Assembly (NCBI GenBank): GCA_003223515.1
Contig: QHVI01000028.1
Location: forward strand, 1 to 64,000
Length of the DNA stretch: 64,000 nucleotides
Origin: Candidatus Angelobacter sp. Gp1-AA117
GTDB lineage: Bacteria; Acidobacteriota; Terriglobia; Terriglobales; Acidobacteriaceae
Reading direction: 5' to 3'
A program made the position numbers and the translations under genes. The notes under the pieces were generated by a model, which was not told where the DNA came from, ran no database searches, and saw nothing but the letters and a program-made list of their open reading frames with translations. Position 1 is the first letter of the stretch. The number at the start of each line of letters is the position of its first letter. This document shows, piece by piece, positions 7,025 through 57,680 of the stretch.

Positions 7025-8935
7025 ATGGTTCCCAAGCCTGTAGCCCTGATTAGCATGCCTTCGCAGTCGGCCGGTATCCCTTCCATCCAACTGGCTTTGT
7101 TGAAACCCACACTGGAGAGGGCCGGCATTCCTGCCCAGTCGTTTTCCCTTTATATGTACCTGGGAACTCAGCTTGGGTGGCGGCTCAGCGAGACCCTGGC
7201 CGAAGTGTGGCCCAGCCTGGTGGGCGAGTGGATATGGTCGAAAGCCGCCTTCGGCGATGAAGCCAATCCCGACGTGGAAGAGTATTTCATCACGCACCGC
7301 GAGACCTTTGACGCATTCTGCAAAGCCGCCGGATGTACCCTGGAAGACCTGCGCCAGCTTCGCAATCAGGGCGCGCAGGAATTTATCGACTTCTGCGTAG
7401 AGAGCACCGACTGGAGCCGCTTTGGGCTGATCGGCCTTACGGTGGTCTACCAGCAGATGCTTTCCAGCCTGGCCATGGCGCGCGCTCTCAAGAAGAAGTA
7501 TCCGCAGATTCCCATCATCATGGGCGGCGGGGCCATGGAAGACGATATTGCCGAAGAGATCATGAAGGGCTGCCCGCAGATGGATTATGTGCACTGCGGC
7601 GATGCCGACATAGGATTTCCCGAGATGGTTCACCGCCTGTATGCGGGCCAGAGCATGGAAAGCCAGCGGGGCATCATGTGGCGCGATGCGCAGGGCAAAG
7701 TACAATACGCCGGACGCGCTCCCAACTTCCATGAGATGAATGCCATCCCCATTCCCGATTATGACGAGTTTTACTATGCGCGGCGGGCCAGCGGCTACGA
7801 TACGTGGCCCAAGGCGCGTCCGGTGCAGTTGCCGTTTGAGACTTCGCGCGGATGCTGGTGGGGAGAGAAAAATCACTGCACCTTCTGCGGCTTGAACCGT
7901 TCAGGCATGGAATTCAGGGCCAAGAGCGTGGATAACGTAATCGAGCAGTTAGAGACGCTCTCCAGCCGTTATCGCTGCTTCGATTTTTTTGCCATCGACA
8001 ACATCATGGCCCCGGAATATACCGAGAAGCTTTTCAGCCGCCTGGCGGCCGCCAACAGCGACATCTCCATGCACTATGAGATTCGGCCCAACTTCTCGCG
8101 CACGCAACTGGCGCGCATGCGGCGCGGCGGACTTCATTCGGTGTTGCCGGGCGTCGAAAGTTTCGCCACCAACATTCTCAAGAGCATGAGAAAGTTCACC
8201 ACCGGCATGCGCAACATCGAGTTGGTGAAGTGGTGCACGTATTACAAGATCAACGTTACCTATAACATTCTCTGCCGCTTTGCCGGAGAGACAGAACAAG
8301 ACTACCGCACGCAGTGCGAGGTAATGGCCAAAATTCCGCACCTGCAGCCGCCCTATGCGGCGGTCATGGCGCGCGCCGACCGGGGTTCGCCGATGTTCAC
8401 CGATCCGGCCTCGCAATCGATCTCAAAGCTTGTGCCTTTCAAGTGCTACCAGTACATCTTTCCCAAAGGAAAGTTCGACCTGCCCCGCATCTCTTATTTC
8501 TTCGATCAGGAGATGACCAACATCGCGGGCGAAGCTTCTTATGCCGCCACCTTTGATGCCGTGGACAACTGGCGGGAGAAATGGGATCAGTCGCAGAAGC
8601 CGTATCTGAAGTACCGCAAGTCGTGGTCTACGATCTTCATCTTTGATGGCCGGCAGGAACAACCGCGGACGCACCGCTATCACGATCAGGAGGCCGCTCT
8701 GTACGAATACTGCTCTGATGCGCGGACGCCCAGGGACATCAGCACGAATTTCAGCTCTGAGCCGTGGGTTGAGGGGGCGCTCAAAGAATTCCTGGCGAAA
8801 GATCTGATGCTGTTCCTGGATGGCCGGTACCTGAGCCTGGCGCTTCCTGAAAACCGCAACTTTGAATTGGAAGCCGGGCCCAGCGCGAAGATCATGACAG
8901 GGGCGCAGGAGCAGCGGGCGGAGACGTTTGCGTAA
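7025..8935 (+). CDS. Cobalamin-type radical SAM protein, RiPP-maturation family (orphan copy)
   Basis: A 636-residue radical SAM enzyme of the bacteriocin/RiPP maturation type. The N-terminal 200 residues resemble a B12-binding domain (GLIGLTVVYQQ, IPIIMGGGAME). The cluster motif near residue 277 is CWWGEKNHCTFC, that is CX7CX2C instead of the usual CX3CX2C; this spacing is what I know from RiPP-maturation radical SAM C-methyltransferases. GTGAGG just before the ATG sets the start. It is clearly related over its full length to the enzyme at 55248-57164 and more distantly to those at 47-51 kb. No precursor gene or small peptide ORF is obvious on either side, so it may act on a distant substrate. 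Methylation is inferred from the family. Confidence 0.85.
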   Translation: MVPKPVALISMPSQSAGIPSIQLALLKPTLERAGIPAQSFSLYMYLGTQLGWRLSETLAEVWPSLVGEWIWSKAAFGDEANPDVEEYFITHRETFDAFCKAAGCTLEDLRQLRNQGAQEFIDFCVESTDWSRFGLIGLTVVYQQMLSSLAMARALKKKYPQIPIIMGGGAMEDDIAEEIMKGCPQMDYVHCGDADIGFPEMVHRLYAGQSMESQRGIMWRDAQGKVQYAGRAPNFHEMNAIPIPDYDEFYYARRASGYDTWPKARPVQLPFETSRGCWWGEKNHCTFCGLNRSGMEFRAKSVDNVIEQLETLSSRYRCFDFFAIDNIMAPEYTEKLFSRLAAANSDISMHYEIRPNFSRTQLARMRRGGLHSVLPGVESFATNILKSMRKFTTGMRNIELVKWCTYYKINVTYNILCRFAGETEQDYRTQCEVMAKIPHLQPPYAAVMARADRGSPMFTDPASQSISKLVPFKCYQYIFPKGKFDLPRISYFFDQEMTNIAGEASYAATFDAVDNWREKWDQSQKPYLKYRKSWSTIFIFDGRQEQPRTHRYHDQEAALYEYCSDARTPRDISTNFSSEPWVEGALKEFLAKDLMLFLDGRYLSLALPENRNFELEAGPSAKIMTGAQEQRAETFA

Positions 8936-41632: not shown

Positions 41633-43762
41633 ATGAAAGAGCTTCTATTTTTCGCCTTGATGATCACTGCAAACAATCTGCTCACTTCCGATAGTAAATC
41701 CGCGAACACTCCGCCGAACGCGGCGGCTCCGCCCGTAGCCAAGGTTATCCATACGGAAAACCACATCAATGGCGGCCACCTGGTGGACGACTACAAATGG
41801 CTGCGGGAGAAATCTAACCCTGAGGTGGCTCAATACCTGGAAGCGGAGAACGCTTACACGGACTCGATCATGAAGCCGACCGAGCCTCTTCAGCAGAAGC
41901 TCTATGAAGAGATGGTCAGCCACATCAAGGAAACCGATGTGAATGTCCCCTTTAAAGACGGCGATTACTTCTATTACTTTCGCTGGGAGGCGGGCAAGCA
42001 GTACCAGATTTACGCGCGGAGGAAGGGCAGCCTGGAGACGGGTGAACAGATCACGCTGGACGTTAACGAACTGGCCAAAGGCGAAAAGTTTATGGCCCTG
42101 GGCGGATATACCGTAAGCGACGATGGCAATCTGCTCGCCTACTCCACTGACAATACCGGCTTCCGCCAGTATCACCTGCATGTGCGTGATCTGCGCACGC
42201 ACAAAGACCTGCCGGATACAGCGGAAAAGGCCGGCTCCATCGCCTGGGCCAATGACAACCAGACCCTCTTCTACACGGTGGAAGATGCGGCCAAGCGCCA
42301 GTATCGCGTCTACCGCCACAAAGTGGGCACAGATACCAAAGATGACGAACTGATCTACGAAGAAAAAGACGAGCGCTTTGAGGTCTCTGTAGCCAAGACC
42401 CGCAGCCGCAAATACCTCTTTATTTTTTCCAACAGCCATACTACCTCTGAAGCGCGCTATCTTGATGCATCGACTCCCAGCAGCGAGTGGAAGCTGATTG
42501 CGCCACGCGAGCAGGACATTGAATATTATCCCGACCACAGCGGCGACCAGTTCTTCATTCGCACCAACGATAAGGGCCGCACTTTCCGGCTGGTAAGCGC
42601 TCCGGTCGCCGATCCGGGCAAGAACAACTGGAAAGAAATTGTCCCAATGCGGCCTGACGTAATGCTTTCGGACATCGAGATTTTCCAGGATTTCTATGTC
42701 CTGATCGAACGGGAAAACGGGCTGCCACAGCTCACCGTAGTGGATCTGGCCAGCGGCGCGAAGAACCGCATCACCTTCCCGGAACCTGTCTACACGGCTG
42801 GTCCGGAGGTCAACATGGAATTCAAGACCAGGTTTTTCCGGTACGCTTACCAGTCGCTGGTAACACCACCGTCGGTGTTTGATTATGACGTGGCCCGCCA
42901 TACTTCAGTCCTGCGCAAGCAGAACGAAGTGCCCGGCGGATATGATCCTGCAAACTACAAGTCAGAACGCCTCTGGGCTACAGCCAAAGACGGGGTGAAG
43001 GTACCCATTTCGGTGGTGTACCGCAAGGATTTGAAGAAGCCGGATGGCTCGAATCCACTGTATGTCTCCGGGTATGGGTCTTACGGAATTTCCACGAATG
43101 CTACTTTCAGTTCAGCCCGCATAAGCATGCTCGACCGTGGAGTTGTGATGGCTTATGCGCATATCAGGGGAGGTGGTGATCTGGGCAAGACCTGGCATGA
43201 TGCCGGACGGATGATGAACAAGATGAACACCTTCACCGACTTCATCGCCTGCACCGAATACCTGGCCGCCAACAAGTATGGCGCACGTAACAAGATCGCG
43301 ATTGAAGGTGGATCGGCGGGCGGATTGCTGATGGGCGCGGTCACCAACCTGCGTCCTGACCTGTTCAGGGCCGTGGTTTCCCACGTTCCTTTTGTGGACG
43401 TGATGAATACCATGCTCGATGCTTCCCTACCCCTTACTGTGGGTGAATACGAAGAGTGGGGCAACCCCAACGAGAAGCCCGCATACGATTACATGCTGAA
43501 GTACTCGCCTTATGACAACCTGAAAAAGGGCGCGTACCCGGCGATCCTGGTGAAGACTTCGTTCAATGACAGCCAGGTGATGTACTGGGAGCCGGCAAAA
43601 TATGTGGCCAAGCTGCGCACGCTGAAGAGCGATCACAACGTCCTGCTGCTCAAGACCAATATGGCTGCAGGGCACGGCGGCGCATCGGGCCGCTACAACC
43701 GTTTCAAGGACGTTGCGTTCGATTACGCGTTCGTGCTGACGCAGCTCGGGGTTGAACGATAA
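41633..43762 (+). CDS. Prolyl oligopeptidase-family serine peptidase (oligopeptidase B-like)
   Basis: 709-residue S9A peptidase. The N-terminus has a hydrophobic segment that may be a signal. HTENHINGGHLVDDYKWLRE opens the peptidase part, a seven-bladed propeller follows, and the C-terminal catalytic domain carries Ser561 in GGSAGG, Asp646 in FNDSQV and His681 in AGHGG. RGGGDLGKTWHDAGR is the family loop before the nucleophile. It cuts short peptides after Pro or basic residues; the oligopeptidase B-like C-terminus favours basic residues. The ATG at 41633 lacks a clear ribosome site. It seems to be transcribed alone. Confidence 0.93.
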   Translation: MKELLFFALMITANNLLTSDSKSANTPPNAAAPPVAKVIHTENHINGGHLVDDYKWLREKSNPEVAQYLEAENAYTDSIMKPTEPLQQKLYEEMVSHIKETDVNVPFKDGDYFYYFRWEAGKQYQIYARRKGSLETGEQITLDVNELAKGEKFMALGGYTVSDDGNLLAYSTDNTGFRQYHLHVRDLRTHKDLPDTAEKAGSIAWANDNQTLFYTVEDAAKRQYRVYRHKVGTDTKDDELIYEEKDERFEVSVAKTRSRKYLFIFSNSHTTSEARYLDASTPSSEWKLIAPREQDIEYYPDHSGDQFFIRTNDKGRTFRLVSAPVADPGKNNWKEIVPMRPDVMLSDIEIFQDFYVLIERENGLPQLTVVDLASGAKNRITFPEPVYTAGPEVNMEFKTRFFRYAYQSLVTPPSVFDYDVARHTSVLRKQNEVPGGYDPANYKSERLWATAKDGVKVPISVVYRKDLKKPDGSNPLYVSGYGSYGISTNATFSSARISMLDRGVVMAYAHIRGGGDLGKTWHDAGRMMNKMNTFTDFIACTEYLAANKYGARNKIAIEGGSAGGLLMGAVTNLRPDLFRAVVSHVPFVDVMNTMLDASLPLTVGEYEEWGNPNEKPAYDYMLKYSPYDNLKKGAYPAILVKTSFNDSQVMYWEPAKYVAKLRTLKSDHNVLLLKTNMAAGHGGASGRYNRFKDVAFDYAFVLTQLGVER

Positions 43763-44529: not shown

Positions 44530-47097
44530 GTGTCCCTGAAATCCATTTTTATTACCTGGTTACTGGCTGTTTTTCTGGTATGTGGCACTGGTCTGCATGC
44601 ACAGACTGATCTCAGTTCTGAAGTTGCGCGAGCCAATATTCTGCGGGCAAAAGGCGCAGCACCGGAAGCGCAAAAAGTCTATGAGTCGGTTCTGCCGCGA
44701 TTGCGGGCGCAGGGGGCGAGCGCCGATCTGGCCACAGCGCTCACCAACCTCAGCGATATCGCTACGTGGGCAGGCGAGTATGACAAAGCTGTGGCATTAG
44801 CCCACGAAGGTGCAAGTGTTTATCGTCGCCTCGGCGATAACAATGGAGAAGCAGAGGCGCTCAATGATGCAGGGTTTGCCGGCCTTAATGCCGGCAACTA
44901 TGCTTCCGCAGCCGCCGATCTGGAACATGCTCTGGCACTGAACAGCGGCACAGGCAATGCGCGCGCTAGAATCCTGATCCTGAATAACCAGGGCAATGTC
45001 TACTATTACCAGGCCAGGTATTCTGAAGCTTTACGCGCGTATGAATCCGCATTTCAGATAGTGAATAAGTCTGAGACTGAAGCGTGGGCCGATACCATGC
45101 GCGTCCTCACGCTCTTCAACCTGGCTACGCTCTACCAGCGCGTTGGCAACTACCAGAGAGCCATCGAGCTATACCAGACTGTGCGGCAATCGAAGGTCAC
45201 CACGCCGGATGACATGGGGCACGTTTTTACCAATCTTGGCGTGCTCTACCGGCACATGGGCGATCCGGAGAAAGCTCTGGCAAACTACCGCGAAGCCCAG
45301 GCATTCTATGCCGAGCAGAAGGATGCAGACGGCGAGCTTGGAGTGCTGAAGAACACCGGCATTGTCCTGGGCCTTGATCTGGGCCGGCTGCAGGACGCGC
45401 TCAAGACTTTCGATGCTGCCTACGAACTCGCCGAAAAAGCCAGCAACAAACGCGAGGCCATGCAGGCTGTCCTCTATCGTGCCGAAGTTCTCTTTCGCAT
45501 GACCCGGCTTGCCGGAGCGGAAAAAGAATTCAAATCTGCCCTGGCCCTGGCAGAACAGTTGGGCACCATAGAAGAACAGTGGAAGGCGCTTTACGGCCTG
45601 GGAAGGATTGCTGAAAGCAACAGCAATCATGATCTCGCGGAAAAAAAGTTTCGTGACGCTATTACCCGAATCGAGAGTGTTCGCTCCAGGCTGCAGTTTT
45701 CGCGGCTGAAAACCGACTTCTTTGCCGACAAGCGGGATGTATACGACGCACTCATTCGCCTGCTGCTCAAACGGAACGATACTGCTGCAGCTTTTGAATA
45801 CATGGAGCGCAGCCGCGCCCGCGCCTTTCAGGATCGTTTTTTTCAAGACAAGGAGCCGCATGAGCCAGTCTCATTGAAATCTATCCAGGCAAACCTGGAT
45901 GGGAAAACCGCGCTGGTGGAATTCTGGGCAGGAAACGATGCCCTTGCGGCGATCTGGGTGACCCGAGACGCAGCGGGAATCACGCACCATGAACTTTCTG
46001 CGGGTGAAAGCCAGGACTTATTGCAGTTTCTCTCGGGCCTGCCCGAGAATCTCAGCGGCAACTGGCAGGCGGATTTTCAACGGCTGAATGCAGTGCTCGC
46101 GAGTGGCATTGTTCCTTTTACAGACAGCCGCTTTCAGCACCTTCTCATTGTTCCTGACGGATTCTTGAGCCTGATACCTTTTGAGCTTACCTCGCCTGCT
46201 TCAGGTCCGCTGCTCCTGGAGAATCACGATCTCGCTTATCTTCCCAGCGCTGTCCTTTTATTGCGTGGCACTGAGAGCGGCGAGGCGCGTTTCCGGCTTC
46301 CCTGGCAGCGGGAATTGCTGGCGTTCGGCGACCCGGCAGTTTCCGGCAGCAGCGAAAGCCCGCTGGTTTCGCGTTCAAGAGAAGAGGGCGGCAAACTGCT
46401 GCCCTATTCTGCGGAGGAAATCCACGCGATTGCCGCTATGAGCGCAGGCCGTTCGCTCACATACCTTGGCCCTGCAGACCGCAAGCAGGACTTTTTCGGC
46501 GTCACCCGGTTCAAAACCGCGCTTCTGCATGTGAGCACCCATGCCATCGCGGACATGGATAATCCTGAACGCTCGCGCCTCTTGTTTTCTCCGGGTCAAT
46601 CCGGTGAAGCCAACAATTATGTTTTCCTCAAGGAACTTTATGACCTTGATCTGCGCGGCACCAGCCTGGCCACACTCTCGGCCTGCGATACCGAACGAGG
46701 CAAGCTGGTTCCGGGTGAAGGAGTACAGGCTTTCAGCCGCGCCTTGCTTTCTGCCGGATCAAAGGCGACATTGACCACTCTGTGGCGCGTTCCTGACCAG
46801 CCCACAGCGGAATTTATGAAGCAGTTTTATTACCTGCTGCTGAAGGAGCACGAATCCAAGGCCGAGGCCCTACGCCTGACCAAGCTGAAATTTCTACATT
46901 CCGGGACAGAGCTGAGTCATCCACGTTACTGGGCGGCCTTTGTGTTGAATGGCGAAGGCTCTGAGCCCGTGCCGAGATTTATTTCATGGCAACTTTTGGC
47001 ATTGGTATTTGTGGCATTGATTTTTGTGATATGGGTCGTTTTGCAGTTGAGAGGTAAAGTCAAATTCTTCTCTCCTACACGGCAGCCACGGCGCTGA
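44530..47097 (+). CDS. TPR-CHAT protein with signal peptide and C-terminal membrane anchor
   Basis: 855-residue protein. A GTG start gives a signal peptide ending in GTGLHAQ. TPR repeats cover about residues 30-370. A CHAT domain, a caspase-like cysteine peptidase fold, covers about 480-800, with the catalytic pair His671 in HVSTHAIAD and Cys719 in LSACDTERGK; TLWRVPDQPTAEFM follows as in other CHAT proteins. A transmembrane helix (about 820-842) and a basic tail end the protein. The topology suggests an extracytoplasmic protease anchored at the inner membrane, unlike the cytoplasmic CHAT effectors of defence systems. The 3' end overlaps that of the convergent radical SAM gene by 23 bases. 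Confidence 0.9.
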   Translation: MSLKSIFITWLLAVFLVCGTGLHAQTDLSSEVARANILRAKGAAPEAQKVYESVLPRLRAQGASADLATALTNLSDIATWAGEYDKAVALAHEGASVYRRLGDNNGEAEALNDAGFAGLNAGNYASAAADLEHALALNSGTGNARARILILNNQGNVYYYQARYSEALRAYESAFQIVNKSETEAWADTMRVLTLFNLATLYQRVGNYQRAIELYQTVRQSKVTTPDDMGHVFTNLGVLYRHMGDPEKALANYREAQAFYAEQKDADGELGVLKNTGIVLGLDLGRLQDALKTFDAAYELAEKASNKREAMQAVLYRAEVLFRMTRLAGAEKEFKSALALAEQLGTIEEQWKALYGLGRIAESNSNHDLAEKKFRDAITRIESVRSRLQFSRLKTDFFADKRDVYDALIRLLLKRNDTAAAFEYMERSRARAFQDRFFQDKEPHEPVSLKSIQANLDGKTALVEFWAGNDALAAIWVTRDAAGITHHELSAGESQDLLQFLSGLPENLSGNWQADFQRLNAVLASGIVPFTDSRFQHLLIVPDGFLSLIPFELTSPASGPLLLENHDLAYLPSAVLLLRGTESGEARFRLPWQRELLAFGDPAVSGSSESPLVSRSREEGGKLLPYSAEEIHAIAAMSAGRSLTYLGPADRKQDFFGVTRFKTALLHVSTHAIADMDNPERSRLLFSPGQSGEANNYVFLKELYDLDLRGTSLATLSACDTERGKLVPGEGVQAFSRALLSAGSKATLTTLWRVPDQPTAEFMKQFYYLLLKEHESKAEALRLTKLKFLHSGTELSHPRYWAAFVLNGEGSEPVPRFISWQLLALVFVALIFVIWVVLQLRGKVKFFSPTRQPRR

Positions 47098-48976
47098 GGT
47101 TTGCTGATGTGTGCATTGCCGGCATCTCTACGTTTTCGTAGTTGAGCGGCAGAATGGCCAGGCTCAGATACAGGTTCCCTTCCTGAAGCATCAGGTCGCG
47201 GGCGACGAACTCACTCAGTATCCTGCGCACTTTTTCAAGGGTGATTGATTCCTCGGGATGACGACCGGCGACAGATTCAAAAATCACAGAATCGGAGTGC
47301 ACGGCATCGGCGGCGAGATAGATGTCCCGCTCGAGTCCCTCAAAGCCGTAACTCACCGGAGTATAACCAGCGCGGCGCTCATGAATGATGAGTGAAGATA
47401 GAGTCACCTCTGCATTCAGAGTACTTTCATCATGAACACGCTGCCACCTCTCGGCTGCTTTCCATGTGCCCTGAGTCGCCTCCTGTATTTCCGGTGTGGT
47501 GGGCGGGTCACAGTTCTGATAGTAAGAGAGGCGCAGAAGCGAATCTTCAGGAAATGGATAGCAGAGGCGGTATCCAGCGTAGCTTCTGATGTTGACGATG
47601 CCATATTTTTCCGGCCACTTGAACATGGGGCTGAAGCGGTCGAGGCGAAAACGGGTCATCACGGTCGGCGGGGGCAGATGGGTGAGAGCGCCAATCCAGC
47701 GGGTGCTCTGGCGATAATCGTCAGCAGTCTCGCCGGGGAAACCACAGAGAATATTCCAGAGGACGTCAAATCCTATCTCTTCCGACCAGCGGAGGAGTTG
47801 CACATTCTGAATTCCCTTCACGCCTTTGTCCATCACCGTGAGCACGTGAGTGCTCAGGCTTTCAATGCCCGGACAAAATCTGTTGCTGCCGACGTTCCAC
47901 AGCGACAGCAATTGGCTCTTCTTCAGGTTTGACTTCATCTCATAGAAAAGCTGAACTTTGAAGCCATCGGCTTCAAGGCGCGGGAACAGTTCACTGAAAT
48001 AACGAACGTCGATGATGTTATCAGTATTGAAAATCTCAGGACTCTTGTAGGTCTCCAGCAGATACCTGATTTCCTGATAGGCGCGGTCCGGCGTCTTGCT
48101 GCGGTAGGTCATGCCCATGCCATTCAGACCGCAGAACGTGCAGTGGTGCTTCTGCCCCCACCAGCAGCCGCGCGAGGTTTCCATGGTGGTTTCAGGAACA
48201 ACCATGTCCCGGGCGGTGGAGTTCTGCAAAGCTTGATAGTAGTCGGTATGGTCCGGGTACGGCAGTTCATTCAGATTGGTTACGAACATCTGGGGTGTGG
48301 AACTGGTCACTGTTTCTCCGTTCTCACGGAAAGTCACCCCACCAATCTCATGCAGCGACTGGCCTGTGCGGATTCGGCGCACCAGCTCAGGAAAAACGTA
48401 ATCAGCCTCACCCGAACACACGATGTCGATAAAAGGAAAGCGGCGGTGCAATTCCACTCCCATTTCTGATTCGAAGTTGGCGCCGCCGAATACCGTGATC
48501 ATGTGCGGGGCGCGGCGCTTGATCTCCTGGGCCATGGCCAGCGAGGCTATGTTCTGCTCAAAGCTGGAAGTAAACCCGACAATATCGTATCGGCTGAAAT
48601 CGATCTCATTGGCGCATTGCTCGATAAACGCCGGGGTCAGATTGCGAACGCGCTCCAGTTGCTGCAGGAACTCCTCGGAATATTGGCGGGCGTAACCGGC
48701 AATACTGGCCTTGAAGTCCGCGAAAGGACGCGCCTCTTCGCCATAAAGAGCCGGCGTGAAGAGAAATTCTCCCATCAGCAGGTGGGCGGGCGCTCTCTCG
48801 GCAAGAAGGACATATAAAGGCACGCCGATGGCGTCGGCAAAACGGAAGCTGAAGTAGCGAATCTCGCAATCCAATTCCTGTTTGTCCATCTGGGCCTTGA
48901 GCAGCGCCAGGCCGAGATGCGGACGAGGCAAGGTAAGGAACGGCATCACGAGCAGGAGTACGCGTTTTTCAGGCAT
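47075..48976 (-). CDS. Cobalamin-type radical SAM protein, RiPP-maturation family (operon gene 5)
   Basis: 633-residue radical SAM enzyme and last gene of the five-gene operon. The start is the ATG at 48976 with GAGGG upstream; a GTG 12 bases earlier is possible. The N-terminal B12-type domain contains VLLLVMPFLTLPRPHLGLALLKA and MITVFGGANFESEMG. The cluster motif in METSRGCWWGQKHHCTFCGLN has CX7CX2C spacing. The radical SAM barrel follows (NTDNIIDVRYFSELFPRLE). The C-terminal 150 residues resemble a small winged-helix-like region (LEKVRRILSEFVARDLMLQEG), which may bind substrate. It is a close paralogue of the gene directly upstream, so tandem duplication is likely. C-methylation or related chemistry is inferred from the family. 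Confidence 0.87.
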   Translation of the reverse strand: MPEKRVLLLVMPFLTLPRPHLGLALLKAQMDKQELDCEIRYFSFRFADAIGVPLYVLLAERAPAHLLMGEFLFTPALYGEEARPFADFKASIAGYARQYSEEFLQQLERVRNLTPAFIEQCANEIDFSRYDIVGFTSSFEQNIASLAMAQEIKRRAPHMITVFGGANFESEMGVELHRRFPFIDIVCSGEADYVFPELVRRIRTGQSLHEIGGVTFRENGETVTSSTPQMFVTNLNELPYPDHTDYYQALQNSTARDMVVPETTMETSRGCWWGQKHHCTFCGLNGMGMTYRSKTPDRAYQEIRYLLETYKSPEIFNTDNIIDVRYFSELFPRLEADGFKVQLFYEMKSNLKKSQLLSLWNVGSNRFCPGIESLSTHVLTVMDKGVKGIQNVQLLRWSEEIGFDVLWNILCGFPGETADDYRQSTRWIGALTHLPPPTVMTRFRLDRFSPMFKWPEKYGIVNIRSYAGYRLCYPFPEDSLLRLSYYQNCDPPTTPEIQEATQGTWKAAERWQRVHDESTLNAEVTLSSLIIHERRAGYTPVSYGFEGLERDIYLAADAVHSDSVIFESVAGRHPEESITLEKVRRILSEFVARDLMLQEGNLYLSLAILPLNYENVEMPAMHTSANLSAVAAV

Positions 48977-49009
48977 TGCGGCCCTCACTGAATTCCATAT
49001 TTGCGCTCA

Positions 49010-50920
49010 TCAGCCGGCATGAGAAACAGCCACCTGAGCAGCCCTCTGCGGAGGTGGCGGGGGCATGATTTCAAATGACTGATCTAGCGGCAGCAGCGCC
49101 AGGCTCAAATACAAGTTATCTTCCTGAAGCATCAGTTCATGTTCCACGAAAATTCGCAGAACCTGGCTGATCTCCTCAAGACTGAATGACCGGTCAAGGT
49201 GTTGAGACGCAGCATACTCCAGCAGGAAGGAGTCAGAGTGGACCCCATCAGCAGCCAGGTAGAGTGTGCGCGCCAAGCCTTCATAGCGATAATCAGCCGC
49301 AGGAAACCCGGCCCGCCGGTCGCGCAGGATGAGTGCAGAGGATGTCACCTCCGCTGTAAGACTGCTGCCGGCGCAAACATTTTTCCAGTCATCGACTGCG
49401 CTCCACATGACTTTGATTTCCCGCAGGGTCTCCGGCAGCATAGGCGGATCACAATCGAGATAAAAGGTGAGCCGCTGCAGAGATTCCTCAGGAATCGGAT
49501 AGCAGAGCTGGTGCGCGGACGAGCTGCGGATATTGGTGATGCCGTACTTCACCGGATCCTTGAACATCGGGCTGAAACGATCGAGCCGGAAGCGAGTCAC
49601 AAATACCGGAGGCTGCAGATGAGGAATGGCGTGTACCCAGCGCGTAATCTGCTGATAATCCTCAGGCACCTCTCCGGGAAAACCGCAAATAATGTTCCAG
49701 GAGACGTTGAATCCCATTTCTGCCGCCCAGCGCAGAAGCTGCACGTTCTGGATGCCCTTTACGCCCTTGTCCATGAGGGTGAGAACGTGCGAGTTCAGGC
49801 TCTCGATCCCAGGCTGGAATTCCCTGCTGCCCACGTTCTTAAAGGTCAGCAACTGGCTTTTCTTCAGATTCGATTTGGTTTCATAGAAAAGCTGCATCTT
49901 CACGCCATCGGCGGCAATGCGCGGAAACAGCTCATTGAAATAGCGCAGGTCCACGATGTTATCGGTATTGAAGATGTCATAGCTGCCATAGGTGGCGAGC
50001 AGATGCTTGATTTCGCTGTAGGCGCGGTCGGCAGATTTGCTGCGGAAGGTCATGCTGAGGCCATTCAATCCGCAGAAAGTGCAATGATGCTTCTGCCCCC
50101 ACCAGCAGCCCCGCGAGGTCTCCATGGTCATCTCCGGAACAATGATCGAGGAAGCTGTGGAGGAATGGAAGGCGCGGAAATAATCATCGTGATCGGGATA
50201 GGGCAGCTCGTTAAGATTGCTCACGAACTTTTGCGGCGTTGAACTGGTCACGGTATTGCCCTGATCATCACGATGGGTAACACCGCCCAAGTCGGAGAGT
50301 GGCTCCCCGGCGCGCAGCCGGCGAACCACTTCAGGAAAGATATGATCAGCTTCGCCGGAGCACACAACGTCAACAAATGGAAAGATGCTGTGCAGTTCCA
50401 CGCCCATCTCGGACTCGAAGTTGGAGCCGCCGAATACCGTAGTGATCTCCGGCGAGCGGCGTTTCAACTCCTGGGCGAGAGCCAGGGAGGCCATGTTCTG
50501 CTGGAAGGTAGAGGTGAAACCGATAATGTCATACTGGGTGAGGTCGATCTGGTTGGCGCATTCCTGGATGAAGATGGGGCTCAGGTTGCGGCAGCGCTCC
50601 AGTTGCTGAAGAAAATCTTCAGGATAGGGCCGCATGTAACCTTCAACACTGTCTTTGAAATCCTGGAACGGACGAGCATCTTCACTGTAGAGTGCGGTCG
50701 TGAAAATGAATTCTCCGGCGAGATGGTGCGATGGAGAATTTTCAGCGATGCGGTCGTAGAGAGAAGCGCCAATGATATCGGCAAAGCGAAAGTTGAAATA
50801 GCGGACATCACACTGGATGCCGGCCTGACTCAGTCCAGCCTTGAGCAAGGCCACCCCCAGATGCGGGCGGCGCAAGGTCAGGAAAGGCATGATCAGGAGG
50901 AGCACCCTCTTGTCAGACAT
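49010..50920 (-). CDS. Cobalamin-type radical SAM protein, RiPP-maturation family (operon gene 4)
   Basis: 636-residue enzyme, clearly homologous over its full length to gene 5 (VLLLIMPFLTLRRPHLGVALLKA, ITTVFGGSNFESEMG, METSRGCWWGQKHHCTFCGLN). The start at the ATG 50920 matches its paralogue; a TTG 15 bases upstream lacks support. It lies 83 bases after the repeat-protein gene, and a strong stem-loop occupies that gap, so its expression is probably below that of the repeat protein. The stop is 33 bases before gene 5. All three Cys of the CX7CX2C motif are present. The FATTCAL-like C-terminal region (LEEISQVLRIFVEHELMLQED) is shared with the other copies. Confidence 0.87.
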   Translation of the reverse strand: MSDKRVLLLIMPFLTLRRPHLGVALLKAGLSQAGIQCDVRYFNFRFADIIGASLYDRIAENSPSHHLAGEFIFTTALYSEDARPFQDFKDSVEGYMRPYPEDFLQQLERCRNLSPIFIQECANQIDLTQYDIIGFTSTFQQNMASLALAQELKRRSPEITTVFGGSNFESEMGVELHSIFPFVDVVCSGEADHIFPEVVRRLRAGEPLSDLGGVTHRDDQGNTVTSSTPQKFVSNLNELPYPDHDDYFRAFHSSTASSIIVPEMTMETSRGCWWGQKHHCTFCGLNGLSMTFRSKSADRAYSEIKHLLATYGSYDIFNTDNIVDLRYFNELFPRIAADGVKMQLFYETKSNLKKSQLLTFKNVGSREFQPGIESLNSHVLTLMDKGVKGIQNVQLLRWAAEMGFNVSWNIICGFPGEVPEDYQQITRWVHAIPHLQPPVFVTRFRLDRFSPMFKDPVKYGITNIRSSSAHQLCYPIPEESLQRLTFYLDCDPPMLPETLREIKVMWSAVDDWKNVCAGSSLTAEVTSSALILRDRRAGFPAADYRYEGLARTLYLAADGVHSDSFLLEYAASQHLDRSFSLEEISQVLRIFVEHELMLQEDNLYLSLALLPLDQSFEIMPPPPPQRAAQVAVSHAG

Positions 50921-50957
50921 CGTAAAAGGCCTCAATAAACTGCGTTTGCATGAAAGA

Positions 50958-51003: not shown

Positions 51004-52422
51004 CTATTTTTTGGGTCTAACATCCGGCGACACTTCCACAATCGGTCGTGAGGCCGGCTTCTTTGTCTCTTTGGCCAACTGTGGCGGCCTCTCAGGTGAT
51101 ACTTCCACGATCGGACGCGCTGCTGCCTTCGGCTGTAGCTCACTGGTCTGCACCGCCGGGTTGAAGTCCGGCGATACTTCGACGATGGGACGCGAGATTG
51201 GCACACTTGTGGTCTGAACCGGCGGCTTGAAGGGCGATACTTCTACTATGGGACGAGCGACTGGAATACTCGCCTTGGGCTGCGGTTCCCTGGTCTGCAC
51301 GGGCACATCGCTAATGTCCGGAGACATTTCTACGATAGGACGAGCGACTGGTCTCGGCAGTGCCTCTCTGGCCTGAACTCCCGGCCCGATATCAGGCGAT
51401 ACTTCGACAATCGGACGTGTGACTGCCGCCTTCGGTTGTGGCTCACTACTCTTCGCCGCAGGCGTGAAGTTTGGCGACACCTCTACGATGGGACGCGCGA
51501 TTGGTATATTCGCCCGAACCGGTGGATTGATGTCCGGAGACATTTCCACGATAGGACGAGCGACTGGTCTCGGCAGTGCCTCTCTGGCCTGAACTCCCGG
51601 CCCGATATCAGGCGATACTTCGACGATGGGACGTGTGACTGCCGCCTTGGGCTGTGGCTCACTACTCTTTGCCGCAGGCGTGAAGTCTGGCGACATCTCT
51701 ACGATGGGACGCGCGATTGGTATATTCGCCTTCGGTTGTGCCTGGTGTGGATCTCTCTTCTCCATTTCCGCATGGGGGAAGTCCGCAACGACCTCGACGA
51801 TGGGACGCGCTACAGGCTTCGGTAGCGGATCTCTTACCGGCTCTGCCTTCTTCTCCATTTCCGCATGAGGGAAGTCCGCAACGACCTCCACGATAGGACG
51901 CGCTACAGGCTTCGGCAGCGGATCTCTTACCGGCTCTGCCTTCTTCTCCATTTCCGCATGGGGGAAGTCCGCAACGACCTCCACAATGGGACGCGCCACA
52001 GGCTTCGGCAGCGGATCTCTTACCGGCTCTTGCGCCTCGGCCTTCGCGGGGGGAATATCACCCGGTGAAACCTCAACAATGGGACGCACTACTGCCTTGG
52101 GCAGTGCTTCCCTTACCGGCTCTTGCGCCTCGGTCTTTGCGGAGGCAATGTCACCCGGTGAAACCTCAACAATGGGACGCACTACTGCCTTGGGCAATGC
52201 TTCCCTTACTGGCTCTGTTCTATTGGTTTCCGCAGCAGAGATATCTTGCGATACGTCAACGATGGGACGAGACACCGCCTTCGAAAGGTGGACCTGTTCG
52301 GTGCTTACGAGAGTCGTGTCTGGGGTAAAGGAGCGAGGTTCCTTATTTGTGGCCCTGGTTTCTCCGGTGGAAGGTTCTTCAATTACTTCAGGTGCTAATT
52401 GCGGCCGCTTGCTCTCACTCAT
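51004..52422 (-). CDS. Repetitive protein with 16 RPIV(E/D)(V/M) motifs, candidate multi-site RiPP-like substrate
   Basis: 472-residue, highly repetitive, Pro-rich protein that I do not recognise from any named family. After a 50-residue N-terminal part that may serve as leader (MSESKRPQLAPEVIEEPS...), the hexapeptide RPIVEV, RPIVEM or RPIVDV occurs 16 times, usually as ARPIVEVSPD, at intervals of about 18-31 residues. Linkers are rich in Pro, Ala, Lys and Glu. I find no Cys, Trp or Tyr, no signal peptide and no membrane segment, so the protein looks disordered. The gene lies between modification enzyme genes, with AAGGAG overlapping the stop of the upstream gene and a stem-loop behind it. 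The invariant motif in variable linkers suggests a residue-specific modification site. A scaffold or binding-motif array is the alternative. Confidence 0.8.
   Translation of the reverse strand: MSESKRPQLAPEVIEEPSTGETRATNKEPRSFTPDTTLVSTEQVHLSKAVSRPIVDVSQDISAAETNRTEPVREALPKAVVRPIVEVSPGDIASAKTEAQEPVREALPKAVVRPIVEVSPGDIPPAKAEAQEPVRDPLPKPVARPIVEVVADFPHAEMEKKAEPVRDPLPKPVARPIVEVVADFPHAEMEKKAEPVRDPLPKPVARPIVEVVADFPHAEMEKRDPHQAQPKANIPIARPIVEMSPDFTPAAKSSEPQPKAAVTRPIVEVSPDIGPGVQAREALPRPVARPIVEMSPDINPPVRANIPIARPIVEVSPNFTPAAKSSEPQPKAAVTRPIVEVSPDIGPGVQAREALPRPVARPIVEMSPDISDVPVQTREPQPKASIPVARPIVEVSPFKPPVQTTSVPISRPIVEVSPDFNPAVQTSELQPKAAARPIVEVSPERPPQLAKETKKPASRPIVEVSPDVRPKK
51758..52036. repeat. Three tandem 93-base units inside the repeat-protein gene
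   Basis: Units start at 51758, 51851 and 51944, each exactly 93 bases and almost identical. They encode the 31-residue block with KPVARPIVEVVADFPHAEME. A second, 216-base near-duplication runs about 51327-51542 and 51543-51758. All units keep the reading frame, so the gene grows and shrinks in whole motifs. Confidence 0.85.
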
Positions 52423-52433
52423 TTGGCGTCTCC

Positions 52434-52967
52434 TTACAAAACTGCCTGTGTGTTATCTGAGATTATTTCTAGTTCTTTCAAGTTTGGCTTCCGGGACACC
52501 CCGGCAGCCGTAATTTGTTCGTATATTTCAAGCACGGCAGAAAGCCCATGCTGAACAAAATCAACCCGTACAAAACTGGAATTCAACCCCATGCGCAGTC
52601 CGCCCACGGCAAAATCGCTGTTGGGCAGCACTGCTGAATGACCCGGTTGGATGGTGATACGGTTCAGGAAGCGGAGGCCACGCAGCCAGGCATCAAGATA
52701 TTGCTGCCGCCGCGCATCATCGCCGGAAAGTTCCGCGAGGTGGACCGCGGCTCCCACGCCTTCAACATACAAAGCTGTGGTATAGCCCGGAGTGTCAGCC
52801 TGGTGATGGTTGATGAAACCGCCGCTCTTCTCCTGCTGCCACTGAAGCAGCCAATCGCCGATTTCAAAGACCAAGTCAGAAAATTCGGAGTTGCGCTGGA
52901 CGCGGGACCATACGCTGAAGGCCTGCATCAGCCATGCCACCTGGCCAAAATCACGCAGATAACGGAA
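52434..52967 (-). CDS. C-terminal part of the PRTase-AMMECR1 fusion, in a shifted frame
   Basis: The codons from about 52967 down to 52434 continue the protein of the upstream gene in another frame: FRYLRDFGQVAWLMQAFSVW, then FEIGDWLLQWQQEKSGGFINH, LYVEGVGAAVHLAELSGDDARRQQYLDAWLRGLRFLN and FVQHGLSAVLEIYEQI. These are paired helices of an alpha/alpha-toroid, the same fold as the last 140 residues of the upstream frame. An in-frame ATG exists at 53078, but the residues before 52967 look like a shadow of the overlapping gene. The TAA stop overlaps the Shine-Dalgarno of the repeat-protein gene, which argues that this stretch is still the true 3' end. Confidence 0.65.
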   Translation of the reverse strand, partial: FRYLRDFGQVAWLMQAFSVWSRVQRNSEFSDLVFEIGDWLLQWQQEKSGGFINHHQADTPGYTTALYVEGVGAAVHLAELSGDDARRQQYLDAWLRGLRFLNRITIQPGHSAVLPNSDFAVGGLRMGLNSSFVRVDFVQHGLSAVLEIYEQITAAGVSRKPNLKELEIISDNTQAVL

Positions 52968-55251
52968 TGTAGCCGTGCTGGCCAATGGAAGTCCACAGCG
53001 TCTCTGCGAGTCCCCGCACCTGGCTACGGCGATGGTCTCCTTTGGGAAGCTGGCAGAGCGCCAGAATGAGAAACGCAATCTCTGAAACTGAAGGCAGGTC
53101 CTGGCCTCTTTCCAACCAGACTTCCAAGCGGTCGAGCTTCATGCATTGCAACAGGTACGCAATGGTCCTTTCCGCGGCTGTATGAATCCGGGGATCTGTC
53201 AGAACCCTTGCAGCCCGCGCCAGCACCCATGCGGCATGTGCAAGCCGGGGAAGATTGCCGCCCTGCCGCAGGCGGTTACCAAATGGCTCATAACTCTCGT
53301 AAAAAGTTCCATCGCGCCGCTGGTGATTGAGCAGGTAATTGGCATAGAGGCGGGCAAGGTGGAAAGGCAGTTCAAGGTCTTCATATTCATCCGGAAGCCG
53401 CCTGAACGCTCCTTCCATCTGGCTCGCACCTTCTGCATCGGCCAGCCAGGTGGTGCAATCGAAGCGCTCCCAGAAGTAAGGAGGACGCGTGATTCCAGCT
53501 TTATCGATCACTTCCAATGGATATGCTTCGCGGGCAACACTCTCTCTGGCAGCCCAGAAGGGCAGCAACATGCCCGAACGTTTGCCCTGACTGACCTGAA
53601 GCATTTGCCGTCCGGAAATCACGTAGCGTATGACCTCGTCAGGCGAAACTTCTCCCATATTCGACCCATCGCTGAGGAGCGAGATGCCGGCAGCAACAGC
53701 TTCAGGAGATGACGCCTGCACATGTTTAAATCGCTCATCGTGCAGGGCAGAGAGAACCAGTCCACGCAGCTCTTCATCGCCATGCATGCTTGATATTTCC
53801 AGACCCATACACCCACGTAGACGGCCCCAGAGGTAAATCGTCACAAAAAGAAAATCAGCGCCCTGAGGCAATGCTTTGGCGGACAAAGGCTGCGTGGTTT
53901 CAGGAACACCCAGCAATTGGGCAATGGCGATGTCCCGCGCGCGAGCGGCGATTGGCCCACAAACCTTGGGATCGTCGCAAGGAAGCGGCTTCGCCGGTGA
54001 TGGAACACCGGTGGGCTGCCAGGTTGCGCCCGGCTCAACGTGTTTTGTCACGCCATGGCGGTGAATCACGAACGGCTCAAAAGACTTCAGCTTGCCATTG
54101 GTAAGGCGCGCGTGCTGGAACTGGCGGAACTCGCTGCCGATTCCGGGCATGCGAGGCAGAGCGCCTCCCATTACGCCGGCACGTTCGCGGCTGCCGACCA
54201 CAATTCCATATTGATCGTTATCGAGCTGGCCCACGGTACATTCTTCGAGTTCTGAAAAGAATGTCACCGCAATGTGGCTTGAATCCACCAGGGTGCGGCC
54301 TTCGCTTCCCTGCGGCAGATGCTGGGCTGTAAGCAATACGGCGCGCAATACGCTTTCAGCCGCCGGCCACTGCTGATCGCCGGGGAAGCACCAGAAACCG
54401 TCGCGCGCATGGCGTACCTGAATATTGGAATGCGAGCGAATACTGACCCATGCTCCACCTGAGGAATCGTAGCTGCGGTCCAGCCGTACCGGAGGCCGCA
54501 AGAGCGTGCCCGTAGTGAGAAATTCGAGCAGCGCGAGGCGCGCCAGATGCGCCGGATGCAATCCGTCAGGCGCTTGGGATGTGCTCCAGTTCAATGGTGG
54601 AAATGCCTGAGAAGGGTTGAAGATGGGCTTCGGCTCACCTTCCAGGTAAGGCATGATGTCCTGGTAAAGATCGAAGAGCGTCTCCATGTGGAAGCCACGC
54701 TCCAACGCATCGGCAATGCCAAATTCCCAGCCGAAATGCACCAGGCAGACTCCGCCTTCTACGCGCAATCCCGCATTTTCCAGATGCTCGCAGCCCTTCC
54801 AGAAGGAGTTGCCTGAAGCAATGGAGTCATCGACAAGAATGACCGGCTCGTAAGGATTGATTTCACCTTCGATCACGCGCATGGCACCATGCCCTTTGGC
54901 TTCTTTCCGAACCAGCAGGCCACGATAACGGCCACGGGACTGCAGAATGATGGATTGAAGAATGGGGACGCCAATCAATCCATAGGTGGCGAGTTGCCGG
55001 CCATCAAAGTGTTCCAGCAGAGGCAGCAGGCAGCGAGCGGTCAGTTCAGCCCCATGAGGTTCCAGCGTGAATGCCAGAGAATTGAGCATCCAGCGGCCCG
55101 ATCTTCCATCCGGAGAGCAGATGGGCTGCGTAGGCGATGCGTAGAGAATTCCCTTCTTCAGCAGCAATTCCAGCAATTCGGTGCGGTCTGCATGGAAAGA
55201 GGCAGGCATGGAAGCCAGGGTCGATTTCATGTCGTCGCGCGGCGTGGTCAT
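52951..55251 (-). CDS. Phosphoribosyltransferase-AMMECR1-alpha/alpha-toroid fusion protein (operon gene 2)
   Basis: 766 residues before the stop. Residues 20-215 resemble orotate phosphoribosyltransferase: GLLVRKEAKGHG near 111 and the PRPP loop VILVDDSIASGNS at 137-149. Residues 235-420 look like a degenerate AMMECR1 unit (FFSELEECTVGQL, AGVMGGALPRMPG). Residues 430-600 are a more typical AMMECR1 domain, with VTIYLWGRLRGCMG near 470-483 and ALHDERFKHV. From about 625 on, paired helices (LPFHLARLYANYLLNHQRRD) begin an alpha/alpha-toroid that continues in a shifted frame below 52967. The start overlaps the stop of the radical SAM gene before it (ATGA). I know of no described protein with this layout. 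Its role in the operon is unknown; AMMECR1 domains also occur beside radical SAM proteins in AmmeMemoRadiSam. Confidence 0.8.
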   Translation of the reverse strand: MTTPRDDMKSTLASMPASFHADRTELLELLLKKGILYASPTQPICSPDGRSGRWMLNSLAFTLEPHGAELTARCLLPLLEHFDGRQLATYGLIGVPILQSIILQSRGRYRGLLVRKEAKGHGAMRVIEGEINPYEPVILVDDSIASGNSFWKGCEHLENAGLRVEGGVCLVHFGWEFGIADALERGFHMETLFDLYQDIMPYLEGEPKPIFNPSQAFPPLNWSTSQAPDGLHPAHLARLALLEFLTTGTLLRPPVRLDRSYDSSGGAWVSIRSHSNIQVRHARDGFWCFPGDQQWPAAESVLRAVLLTAQHLPQGSEGRTLVDSSHIAVTFFSELEECTVGQLDNDQYGIVVGSRERAGVMGGALPRMPGIGSEFRQFQHARLTNGKLKSFEPFVIHRHGVTKHVEPGATWQPTGVPSPAKPLPCDDPKVCGPIAARARDIAIAQLLGVPETTQPLSAKALPQGADFLFVTIYLWGRLRGCMGLEISSMHGDEELRGLVLSALHDERFKHVQASSPEAVAAGISLLSDGSNMGEVSPDEVIRYVISGRQMLQVSQGKRSGMLLPFWAARESVAREAYPLEVIDKAGITRPPYFWERFDCTTWLADAEGASQMEGAFRRLPDEYEDLELPFHLARLYANYLLNHQRRDGTFYESYEPFGNRLRQGGNLPRLAHAAWVLARAARVLTDPRIHTAAERTIAYLLQCMKLDRLEVWLERGQDLPSVSEIAFLILALCQLPKGDHRRSQVRGLAETLWTSIGQHGYIPLSA

Positions 55252-57164
55252 CGGGCAATCAACTCCGCATCTAGCTGGCTGGCGGTCGCCACCGCCTTGC
55301 GTTCTGGTATCTCACTCATCTCAAAATAAGGATTCTCCGGCAACGCCAGGCTCAAATAGCGTCCATCAAGGTGGAGCATCAGATCTTTGCTGACAAAATC
55401 GTTGAGAGCATCTTCAATCGAGGGATCGTCTCCAAAATTTGCAGCGATGTCTTTGGGTGTCCGCGCCTCAGCGCAATACTCATAAAGACTGGCCGCATCT
55501 CCGCGATAGGTGAATACCTTCTCCTCTGATTTTCTGCCATCGAAGATGCTGATGGTTGCCAGGGATTTCCGGTATTTCAGGTAAGGACGCACGGGCTGTT
55601 TCCACAATGCCTGCCACGCGCCCACACGGCCGAACAGCTCCTCGTAAACATCGTCGGTGACTGTTTTTCCCATCTGGTGTTCGAAGTAATAGGAAATGCG
55701 GCGCAGGTTAAAACTTTCCGGGAAGATGTACTGATAACACGTTGCGGGAACCAGGTTTGAAACCAATTGCGACTCCGGTTCGGCGTACATGGGTGATCCG
55801 CGGTCGGCGCGCGCCTTCACGATGGCATAGGGAGGCTGGAAATGAACAATCCGGCGAGCCACCTCGGCCTGTATTCGATAGTCTTCCTCGGTTTCGCCGG
55901 GGAAACGGCAGAGGATGTTATAGAGGCTGTTGATTCCGTAGTAGGTGCACCACTTGATTAGCTCCACGTTGCGCATCCCGGTGGAATGCTTTCTCATGAT
56001 CTTCAGAATATTGGTGGAGAGGCTTTCAATGCCGGGCTGCACGGAGAAAAGTCCGCTGCGGCGCAGCTTGCCCAGTTGTTTGCGGGAAAAATTGGGGCGA
56101 ATCTCGTAATGAATGCAGAGATCGCTATTGACGGCCGCGAGTTTGCCAAACAGCTTTTCCACGTACTCCGGGGCCATGATGTTGTCGATTGCATTGAAAT
56201 AGAACTGGCCATAGCGACGGGACAGAGCTTCCAGTTGCTGCAAGACGTTCTCGGGATCTTTAGCGCGAAACTCCATGCCTGAGCGGTTCAGGCCGCAGAA
56301 GGTGCAATGGTTTTTCTCTCCCCACCAGCAGCCACGGGCCGCTTCAAAGGGGACGAGCAGTTCCTGCACGTAGTCGGACTCCTCGTAACCGCTGGCTTTG
56401 CGCGCGTAGAAGTATTCGTCGAAATCGGGTAGTGGCGTGTTGTTCATTTCCATGAAGTTGGGAGCGCGTCCGGCGTAATGGACCTGGCCGGCAGAATCGC
56501 GCCACATAATGCCGCGCAATCCTTCCATGCTCTGGCCGCTGTACAGCCGCTTCACCATCTCCGGGAAGGAGATTTCCGCATCGCCACAATGCATGTAATC
56601 GATTTGCGGGCAGCCCTTCATGATCTCGTCCGCAATGTCGTCTTCCAGGCTTGCACCACCCATGATGATGGGCAGGTTGGGGTAGCGCTGCTTGAGCGCT
56701 CGCGCCAGCGCCAGGCTGCCAATGAGTTGTTGAAAGACTATCGTGAAGCCAACCAGGCCGAAGCGGCTCCAATCGACAGAATCGAGGCAAAAATCGATAA
56801 ATTCGGGCGCGGCTTCATCGCGCAAACGGCGAATGTCATCCAGAGTGCATCCCGCAGTCTCACAGATGGTCTCGAAAAGACTCTCGTAGGCGGCAAAATA
56901 CTCTTCATCCCTGGTATTGGCATCTTTGCCGAAAGCCACTTTCGACCAAATCCATTCACCCACCAGGCAGGGCCAGACATCGGCCATGGTTTCCGCCATT
57001 CGCCAGCCAATCTGGTGCCCCATATACATAAATAACGAAAATTGCTGGGCAGGAATCCCGGCTTGTTCCAACATGGGCTTGAGGAGTGCAAGCTGGAAAG
57101 AGGGATGACGCGCCGAGAGGGAGGGCATGCTGACAAGGGCGACCGGTTTAATGTTGTCAGGCAT
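55248..57164 (-). CDS. Cobalamin-type radical SAM protein, RiPP-maturation family (operon gene 1)
   Basis: 638-residue enzyme and first gene of the operon. It starts MPDNIKPVALVSMPSLSARHPSFQLALLKP, matching the orphan copy at 7025, which supports the ATG at 57164 over the GTG at 57203. The B12-type domain has LVGFTIVFQQL and LPIIMGGASLEDDIADEIMKGC. The cluster motif AARGCWWGEKNHCTFCGLN has CX7CX2C spacing. The barrel (FNAIDNIMAPEYVEKLF) and the C-terminal small domain (SIEDALNDFVSKDLMLHLDGRYLSLALPE) follow. It differs from genes 4 and 5 and forms a second subfamily with the 7025 gene, so the operon probably carries two distinct activities. Confidence 0.87.
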   Translation of the reverse strand: MPDNIKPVALVSMPSLSARHPSFQLALLKPMLEQAGIPAQQFSLFMYMGHQIGWRMAETMADVWPCLVGEWIWSKVAFGKDANTRDEEYFAAYESLFETICETAGCTLDDIRRLRDEAAPEFIDFCLDSVDWSRFGLVGFTIVFQQLIGSLALARALKQRYPNLPIIMGGASLEDDIADEIMKGCPQIDYMHCGDAEISFPEMVKRLYSGQSMEGLRGIMWRDSAGQVHYAGRAPNFMEMNNTPLPDFDEYFYARKASGYEESDYVQELLVPFEAARGCWWGEKNHCTFCGLNRSGMEFRAKDPENVLQQLEALSRRYGQFYFNAIDNIMAPEYVEKLFGKLAAVNSDLCIHYEIRPNFSRKQLGKLRRSGLFSVQPGIESLSTNILKIMRKHSTGMRNVELIKWCTYYGINSLYNILCRFPGETEEDYRIQAEVARRIVHFQPPYAIVKARADRGSPMYAEPESQLVSNLVPATCYQYIFPESFNLRRISYYFEHQMGKTVTDDVYEELFGRVGAWQALWKQPVRPYLKYRKSLATISIFDGRKSEEKVFTYRGDAASLYEYCAEARTPKDIAANFGDDPSIEDALNDFVSKDLMLHLDGRYLSLALPENPYFEMSEIPERKAVATASQLDAELIAR

Positions 57165-57680
57165 TCTAAGTGACCCGAACAGGGGGAAGTGGGAGTAAAC
57201 CACTTAAAAAGCCTCAAGAGTATACACTTTCCGGGAGTAGAAATACTCCATTCCATTATGGGAATTTACAGATTTGTAACATTAAGCAATTTCAGCGCCA
57301 GGTTCTCCGGAAATATTGGGGAGCTGTTCACAACAGAGAGAATTCTTGAGTAAGTATGCAAATCGAGCAGTTTCAAACTTTGTTGCTGGAATAGTTCAGG
57401 AGCACAAACTTCAATCGATGAGGCGACTATAGGCGATGTCCTGGTATTTTGCATGACACGCAAGCATTTTGAAAATTTCCGTCATTGGAAATTGTGCTCA
57501 GTTCAAAAAAGTCCTACTGTTGGATTTTTTGATGCAAGTTCTTGTTGCTTGCAAGAATTGCCAGCACATAGGTTGACTCTGGGCTGCTGCGCAGCCTCTC
57601 AGCAGCTTAGTGCGATCCGCACAGCCGGCCACCAATTTTCGTTTGGTTGCGGCGCGCCGCGCTGTACTACACGAGCCGTT
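57165..57680. other. 516-base upstream region of the radical SAM operon
   Basis: No gene is seen between the operon and the acetyl-CoA synthetase gene, which points the same way. It should contain the operon promoter. A TATACT box (minus strand, 57219-57224) and a sigma-54-like site (57285-57300) are present. The palindrome GCGGCGCGCCGC (57649-57660) lies near the acs stop and may belong to a terminator. I saw no cobalamin riboswitch core. Confidence 0.5.
57285..57300 (-). promoter_or_regulatory. Sigma-54-like -24/-12 promoter candidate for the radical SAM operon
   Basis: On the minus strand TGGCGCTGAAATTGCT matches the consensus TGGCAC-N5-TTGCW with one mismatch, and the GG and GC doublets have the right spacing. 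The start codon is about 110 bases further on. One such match can occur by chance, and no enhancer-binding regulator is nearby. Confidence 0.35.

Follow-up and report, generated by a model that had tools for sequence, protein, structure and literature searches.

A proline-rich tandem-repeat protein of Candidatus Angelobacter, a candidate multi-site substrate of B12-dependent radical SAM enzymes and a PRTase–AMMECR1 fusion protein

Related systems

The described enzymes closest to those of this locus are PoyC and PoyB of polytheonamide biosynthesis, which act on one core of 49 residues (PMC11285071). PoyC carries a Cx7Cx2C motif and is described in reviews as methylating Val and Ile (PMC11285071, PMC5682303), and PoyB is described as methylating Val and Met (PMC11285071). 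Two papers in the literature searched name the family TIGR03975, one of them PMC12350317.

The four enzymes called here B1 to B4 resemble PoyC and PoyB in the combination of B12-binding and radical SAM domains, and the Cx7Cx2C of PoyC is also found in all four. In addition, the reported acceptors Val, Ile and Met are the residue types that follow Glu in the repeats described below. Unlike the polytheonamide enzymes, those of this locus occur with tens of tandem sites, with no shared leader seen and with a partner that joins phosphoribosyltransferase (PRTase), AMMECR1 and (alpha/alpha)6 domains; the two systems are likened here by description. B1–B4 score as members of TIGR03975 (rSAM_ocin_1), but the family model is silent on a repeat substrate and on the fusion. 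AmmeMemoRadiSam (TIGR04335 and its partners) is similar in that an AMMECR1 domain occurs with radical SAM proteins, whereas the AMMECR1 part found here falls below the cut-off and is fused to the PRTase and (alpha/alpha)6 domains. Orotate phosphoribosyltransferases share the fold and the PRPP loop of the N-terminal domain of the fusion, which in this case is part of a multidomain protein occurring with peptide-modifying enzymes. In the literature searched there was no paper combining RiPP, radical SAM and AMMECR1, and searches for the six-letter repeat strings gave no relevant match. While the enzymes belong to a known family, that literature yielded neither the repeat type nor its combination with the fusion.

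Gene content of the window

The window is a stretch of 64,000 nucleotides in which B3 (55248..57203), the fusion gene, the repeat gene (51004..52422), B1 (49010..50935) and B2 (47075..48988) are all encoded on the minus strand. B4 (7025..8935, plus strand), a paralogue 63% identical to B3, is located about 40 kb from the rest; its relative in the congeneric genome G170 adjoins the relative of B2, and B1 also has a relative there. The orthologue of B3 is the one kept across phyla. B1–B4 have B12-binding and radical SAM domains with Cx7Cx2C, and belong to TIGR03975 with 618, 605.5, 528.4 and 512.3 bits, respectively, against a curated cut-off of 281.85 bits, the matches of B1–B3 being full-length. 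The three Cys of Cx7Cx2C are invariant across a 15-row radical SAM alignment and are also present in the loci L122–L124, a reading that left out the enzymes of genomes G998 and G569. The first-pass annotation had proposed B12-dependent C-methylation, and on this point the neighbours proved to be B12-binding radical SAM proteins of TIGR03975, a RiPP C-methyltransferase family.

The predicted model of B3 is nearest to B12-dependent radical SAM enzymes (OxsB, TokK, TsrM, AprD4, CysS and MgmA), with Z 19.0, rmsd 3.5 and 399 aligned residues for 5ul4; the VIA-align comparison mainly spanned residues 16–540. OxsB and AprD4, the latter with a structure titled dehydratase, perform chemistry other than methylation, thus the nearest structures are not all methyltransferases. 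From what is known of the family, we infer that B3 is a B12-dependent C-methyltransferase. At the C-terminus of the radical SAM enzymes the predicted secondary structure runs as three strands, three helices and two strands, and only in this order do we see a resemblance to a RiPP recognition domain. The reading was rejected: the best E against PDB sequences in a profile search was 0.067, and no Pfam match was convincing.

A fifth TIGR03975 protein of the genome (C190) has ABC-transporter-like and NRPS-like genes nearby (judged by eye), and the ORFs listed around it contain no EVxP repeats. In the window, a TPR-CHAT protein (44530–47097, plus strand) is encoded tail to tail with B2. Another ORF (41633–43762, plus strand), within a few kb of the gene for the Pro-rich repeats, resembles a prolyl oligopeptidase when judged by eye; no such ORF was seen next to the genes of G170.

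The fusion protein

The first frame of the window fusion gene (52951..55251, minus strand) encodes 766 residues with a PRTase-like domain, a middle alpha/beta domain, an AMMECR1 domain and the start of an (alpha/alpha)6 domain, as indicated by profiles and, for the folds, by the model of the G170 relative. A C-terminal remnant lies in another frame (52434..53078, minus strand). The window gene lacks 154 bases found in G170, near 52967, and is thereby split by a frameshift within the (alpha/alpha)6 domain. The window copy may be decaying, or its assembly may be wrong, while the repeats stay conserved; since the fusion is broken, the system as encoded in the window may be in decay and intact only in other genomes. 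The intact G170 protein, identical to one on DAHUXR010000006.1, has all four domains in its predicted model (orotate-PRTase-like, middle alpha/beta, AMMECR1 and (alpha/alpha)6).

In a Foldseek search with this model, the N-terminal domain matched 5hki_A (E 8.3e-10, target TM 0.86), and it is predicted to be a type I phosphoribosyltransferase with the orotate PRTase fold and the PRPP loop, which reads LVDDSIASG in the window. The AMMECR1 part of the window protein reaches 54.6 bits for Pfam AMMECR1 (cut-off 25) and 53.7 bits for TIGR04335, under the cut-off of 99, so it was not assigned to the latter family. The (alpha/alpha)6 model resembles cellobiose 2-epimerase 3wkf (Z 28.9, rmsd 3.1, 327 aligned residues), in a VIA-align comparison that mainly spanned residues 623–968 of the fusion, and is also similar to mannanases and terpene cyclases. 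The middle domain was considered as a second copy of AMMECR1, with hhalign E values of 0.015 and 0.075 in the two directions; this reading was rejected as unsupported because a control pair, the middle domain against the (alpha/alpha)6 domain, also reached E 0.024.

The repeat protein and selection on its motif

The repeat gene encodes a protein of 472 residues, 85 of which are Pro, without NCBIfam or Pfam family match; ten of the repeat proteins compared with curated families likewise gave no match above cut-off. Promoter- and terminator-like sites were not more frequent than in shuffled sequences. The first-pass annotation had described sixteen RPIV(E/D)(V/M) hexapeptides in a protein without Cys, Trp or Tyr, and both observations were reproduced: the ORF contains 12 copies of RPIVEV, three of RPIVEM and one of RPIVDV, spaced 21–32 residues, and its composition includes none of the three residues. 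Shuffling the protein 2000 times gave a mean of 0.001 copies and a maximum of 1. The description of the motif was right for the hexapeptide but left out the S-P that follows it directly in 12 of the 16 copies; E-V-x-P is not strict, four of the 16 window copies deviating from it.

The 16 copies are encoded by 14 distinct DNA sequences. When the copies are compared in all 120 pairs, codons for R, P, I and V present 244 synonymous and no nonsynonymous differences, which indicates selection on the motif peptide, as the annotation had argued. At the E/D and V/M positions there are 15 and 39 nonsynonymous differences, respectively, and the ten residues upstream of the motif vary, with 156 synonymous and 866 nonsynonymous differences. 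Recent tandem DNA duplications are present among the copies (93 bp × 3.0 and 216 bp × 1.9, with 95–96% matches), so the 120 pairs are not independent tests; the contrast is strong despite the duplicated copies. On the shuffles and the codon comparison, a chance origin of the motif was rejected. In the partial repeat protein of G170, four of five copies read RPIVEV and one RPTVEV.

A shared repeat core

The annotation had further treated RPIVE as the general core, and this did not hold. RPIV is missing from 15 of the 19 repeat proteins encoded beside related enzymes, and occurs 16 times in the window, four times each in L033 and G170 and once in L034; repeats without RPIVE thus stand beside related enzymes, the very outcome that the annotation had named as refuting its reading. 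The repeat proteins have in common the core [VI]-x-E-[V/I/M]-x-P (as in EVAP, EVSP, EIRP and EVGP), with which the window motif coincides in its segment IVE[VM]SP, and RPIVE is therefore one genus's version. Examples are RPIPEVAP (L032), EVIVEVAPEIKP (L033), RPEIRPLPEIRP (L035), HPEVAPEISE (L037) and VVMEVGPVRP (L043). Copy numbers reach 39 per protein. Patterns were counted in 16 pieces of repeat proteins, treating V/I/L/M as one class and E/D as another; [VILM]-x-E-x-x-P and E-[VILM]-x-P ranked at the top, each occurring at least three times in 15 pieces. E[VIML].P exceeded all 500 shuffles in 18 of the 19 proteins, the exception being G170, of which there are two gene pieces only. When any residue was allowed after Glu (E?.P), that position was V, I or M at frequencies of 0.41, 0.37 and 0.05, against a background of 0.10, 0.08 and 0.02.

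Residues 1–50, to which the annotation would fuse a single motif in a test substrate, are not supported as a general leader; judged by eye, likeness of the N-termini is confined to the window and G170, and beyond the genus they look unrelated. In L124 (7787–8824, plus strand) a longer non-repetitive N-terminal part precedes six exact RPPRPVIEIAPE-type repeats, so that the array looks like an attached tag.

Distribution of the fusion loci

Among 200 genomes of the family, the fusion was found in two, the window genome and its congener G170, and the repeat protein in the same two. Wider relatives came from a sample of 396 genomes of the phylum and from a pattern-limited scan of the collection. 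The first set contains 18 fusion loci (window, G170, the 12 loci L032–L043, L045, L046, L044 of genome G262 and L026 of genome G239), with contigs met twice merged and L047 dropped as matching only in the AMMECR1 part. The partial matches L027–L030 stand outside the counts, and the 16 and 11 genomes matching only the PRTase-like or the toroid stretch were not counted as fusions. In this set a repeat protein is encoded on the same strand and within 3 kb of the fusion in 15 loci; the repeat gene is cut by the contig end in G170, L039 and possibly others.

Seven new full-length loci, from the phylum of G573 (Myxococcaceae), served as a held-out set. The prediction, fixed before retrieval, was that in all seven a radical SAM gene with Cx7Cx2C and an ORF with E[VIML].P repeats would lie within 3 kb, G1035 being perhaps of another type. 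It failed for three: four loci had both features and three neither. In L122–L125 a repeat ORF directly adjoins the fusion, with repeats such as RPEIIREIAP and RPVIEIAPERP; in three of these loci the radical SAM gene is adjacent, and the fourth (G998) has it on the same contig at a distance of about 21 kb. In G1021, G1015 and G1035 no E[VIML].P repeat ORF was found in the stretch examined, and no radical SAM protein of these genomes scored above 384.2 bits, against at least 910 for orthologues.

In total, 25 fusion loci from at least four phyla were obtained. The taxa named for the first set are Acidobacteriota, Myxococcales, Archangiaceae, Myxococcaceae, Acidimicrobiaceae, Thiotrichaceae and Acetobacteraceae, with two loci in Mycobacterium sp. 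OAS707. In 19 of the 25, the gene of a tandem-repeat protein has the same orientation as the fusion gene and lies no more than 3 kb from it, which corresponds to the RiPP arrangement of a precursor gene beside modifying enzymes, the repeat gene being the putative precursor.

The loci of G262 and G239 present another repeat type, LPGDLQIKHKLQLGDE-like and without E[VIML].P, beside a radical SAM enzyme without Cx7Cx2C, and no B3-level match was found in these genomes. They are perhaps a sister system with another substrate. Genes for LPGDLQIKHKLQLGDE-like repeats were observed at L025 (3553–4875, minus strand) and L026 (5163–6170, plus strand), where the nearby fusion lacks the AMMECR1 stretch.

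A search with the L033 repeat protein matched 10 of the 396 phylum genomes. The strongest matches were in G356, the genome of L033, and in G426 (7.5e-17), which also has the fusion; those in the remaining eight ranged from 1.3e-8 to 8.5e-4. Of these eight, only the match in G531 (L060) was read, and to the eye it resembled a coding stretch rich in Ser and translated in another frame. Known members such as G462 and the window were not recovered, which makes the search insensitive, so repeat proteins free of these enzymes may exist.

A radical-SAM-like gene is common to three of the fusion loci, L041 (5064–7424, minus strand), L034 (4794–6299, minus strand) and L040 (13219–14682, plus strand). 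At L041, four short ORFs similar to one another come after this gene and presumably encode DUF1843-type peptides.

Co-occurrence and joint loss

A B3 orthologue was found for 18 of the 19 repeat loci, which correspond to 17 of 18 genomes because L037 and L038 lie in one genome with two B3 orthologues; for L042, a short contig, the 3.2-Mb assembly gave no B3 match. All 19 repeat loci retain the PRPP loop ([DE]D[STA]xx[ST]G), and all 18 that include the AMMECR1 stretch retain its Cys. L046, L120, L121 and L126, on the other hand, have neither a repeat protein nor a B3-level match. In these four the AMMECR1 Cys is gone, one of them lacking the whole stretch, and the PRPP loop is degenerate in three, with L046 retaining it; G262 and G239 retain the loop and miss the AMMECR1 stretch. 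Loop and Cys were picked after the loci had been seen, so these counts are not a pre-set test. Motif retention ties the fusion, the radical SAM enzyme and the repeats together as one pathway, and is a firmer link than gene order. The repeat-free homologues of the fusion look as if they had been kept for another role.

Proposed pathway and alternative explanations

Selection on the motif, the presence of the three genes together across phyla and their joint loss are demonstrated by these comparisons. On balance, and with modest confidence, we favor the view that the repeat protein is a multi-site substrate of a system composed of itself, the B12-dependent radical SAM enzyme and the three-function fusion. 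The substrate would be leaderless, with its own site in each repeat and hence no need for a leader. As a first step, the PoyC-like B3 would C-methylate the V, I or M after the conserved Glu of [VI]-x-E-[VIM]-x-P, the likeliest site because these residues match the types reported for PoyC and PoyB; Pro and Glu of the motif are other candidates. As a second step, proposed less firmly, the fusion may add or process a second group on the same repeats in a PRPP-dependent reaction; if so, to our knowledge, no use of PRPP in a pathway of this kind has been described before. The role of its (alpha/alpha)6 part is not fixed by resemblances that span cellobiose 2-epimerase, mannanases and terpene cyclases. 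The full sequence of events, in which Pro-rich repeats are hypermodified without a leader at tens of sites, C-methylated and then phosphoribosylated or otherwise changed by the PRPP-dependent fusion, is put forward only tentatively. In the genus of the window, B1, B2 and B4 may act on neighboring residues, and the near-frozen RPIV may reflect these extra enzymes, a reading for which two genomes are too few; L036 has a second radical SAM enzyme, yet no RPIV.

The main alternative is that the repeats are a docking array, which binds the enzymes or another partner and remains unmodified while the real substrate is encoded elsewhere. A short conserved motif repeated in a Pro-rich protein without known domain fits such a role, and docking would also conserve the motif between variable linkers. 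Recruitment alone, however, leaves unexplained both the up to 39 copies per protein and the constant V/I/M after Glu, and no second substrate family was recognized among the ORF clusters common to at least three loci, so that we regard docking as rather unlikely. A similarly low probability is given to a multicore RiPP, in which each repeat would be modified, excised and exported as one of many small peptides. Tandem-repeat architecture does resemble that of multicore precursors, and TIGR03975 is named as a RiPP maturation family, but the N-termini inspected by eye gave no conserved leader, the linkers differ in length and sequence so that a common cleavage site is not obvious, and in L124 the array is joined to a longer N-terminal part. 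Judged by eye, the clusters common to at least three loci of the first set, the held-out loci being outside this comparison, included no recognizable protease or exporter family, which makes a released peptide less likely than a modified whole protein. That no shared leader was seen and that no protease or exporter family was recognized are both unusual for RiPPs. The spread of low-complexity repeats by DNA duplication, with no motif-specific role, would account for the recent tandem duplications; it is contradicted by the codons for R, P, I and V, with 244 synonymous differences and not one nonsynonymous, and by a common core beside related genes at 19 loci, and is considered highly improbable.

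Implications

The presence of related gene sets in several phyla suggests an undescribed system for the multi-site marking of repeat proteins. Should the repeats prove to be modified, the short motif would act as a tag that directs unusual residues to many positions without a leader. AMMECR1 domains are widespread and their function is unknown. As an AMMECR1 domain with a conserved Cys is here tied to a repeat protein and a B12-dependent radical SAM enzyme, its role becomes directly testable, and if the hypermodification reading is true, this domain would gain a role in peptide chemistry.
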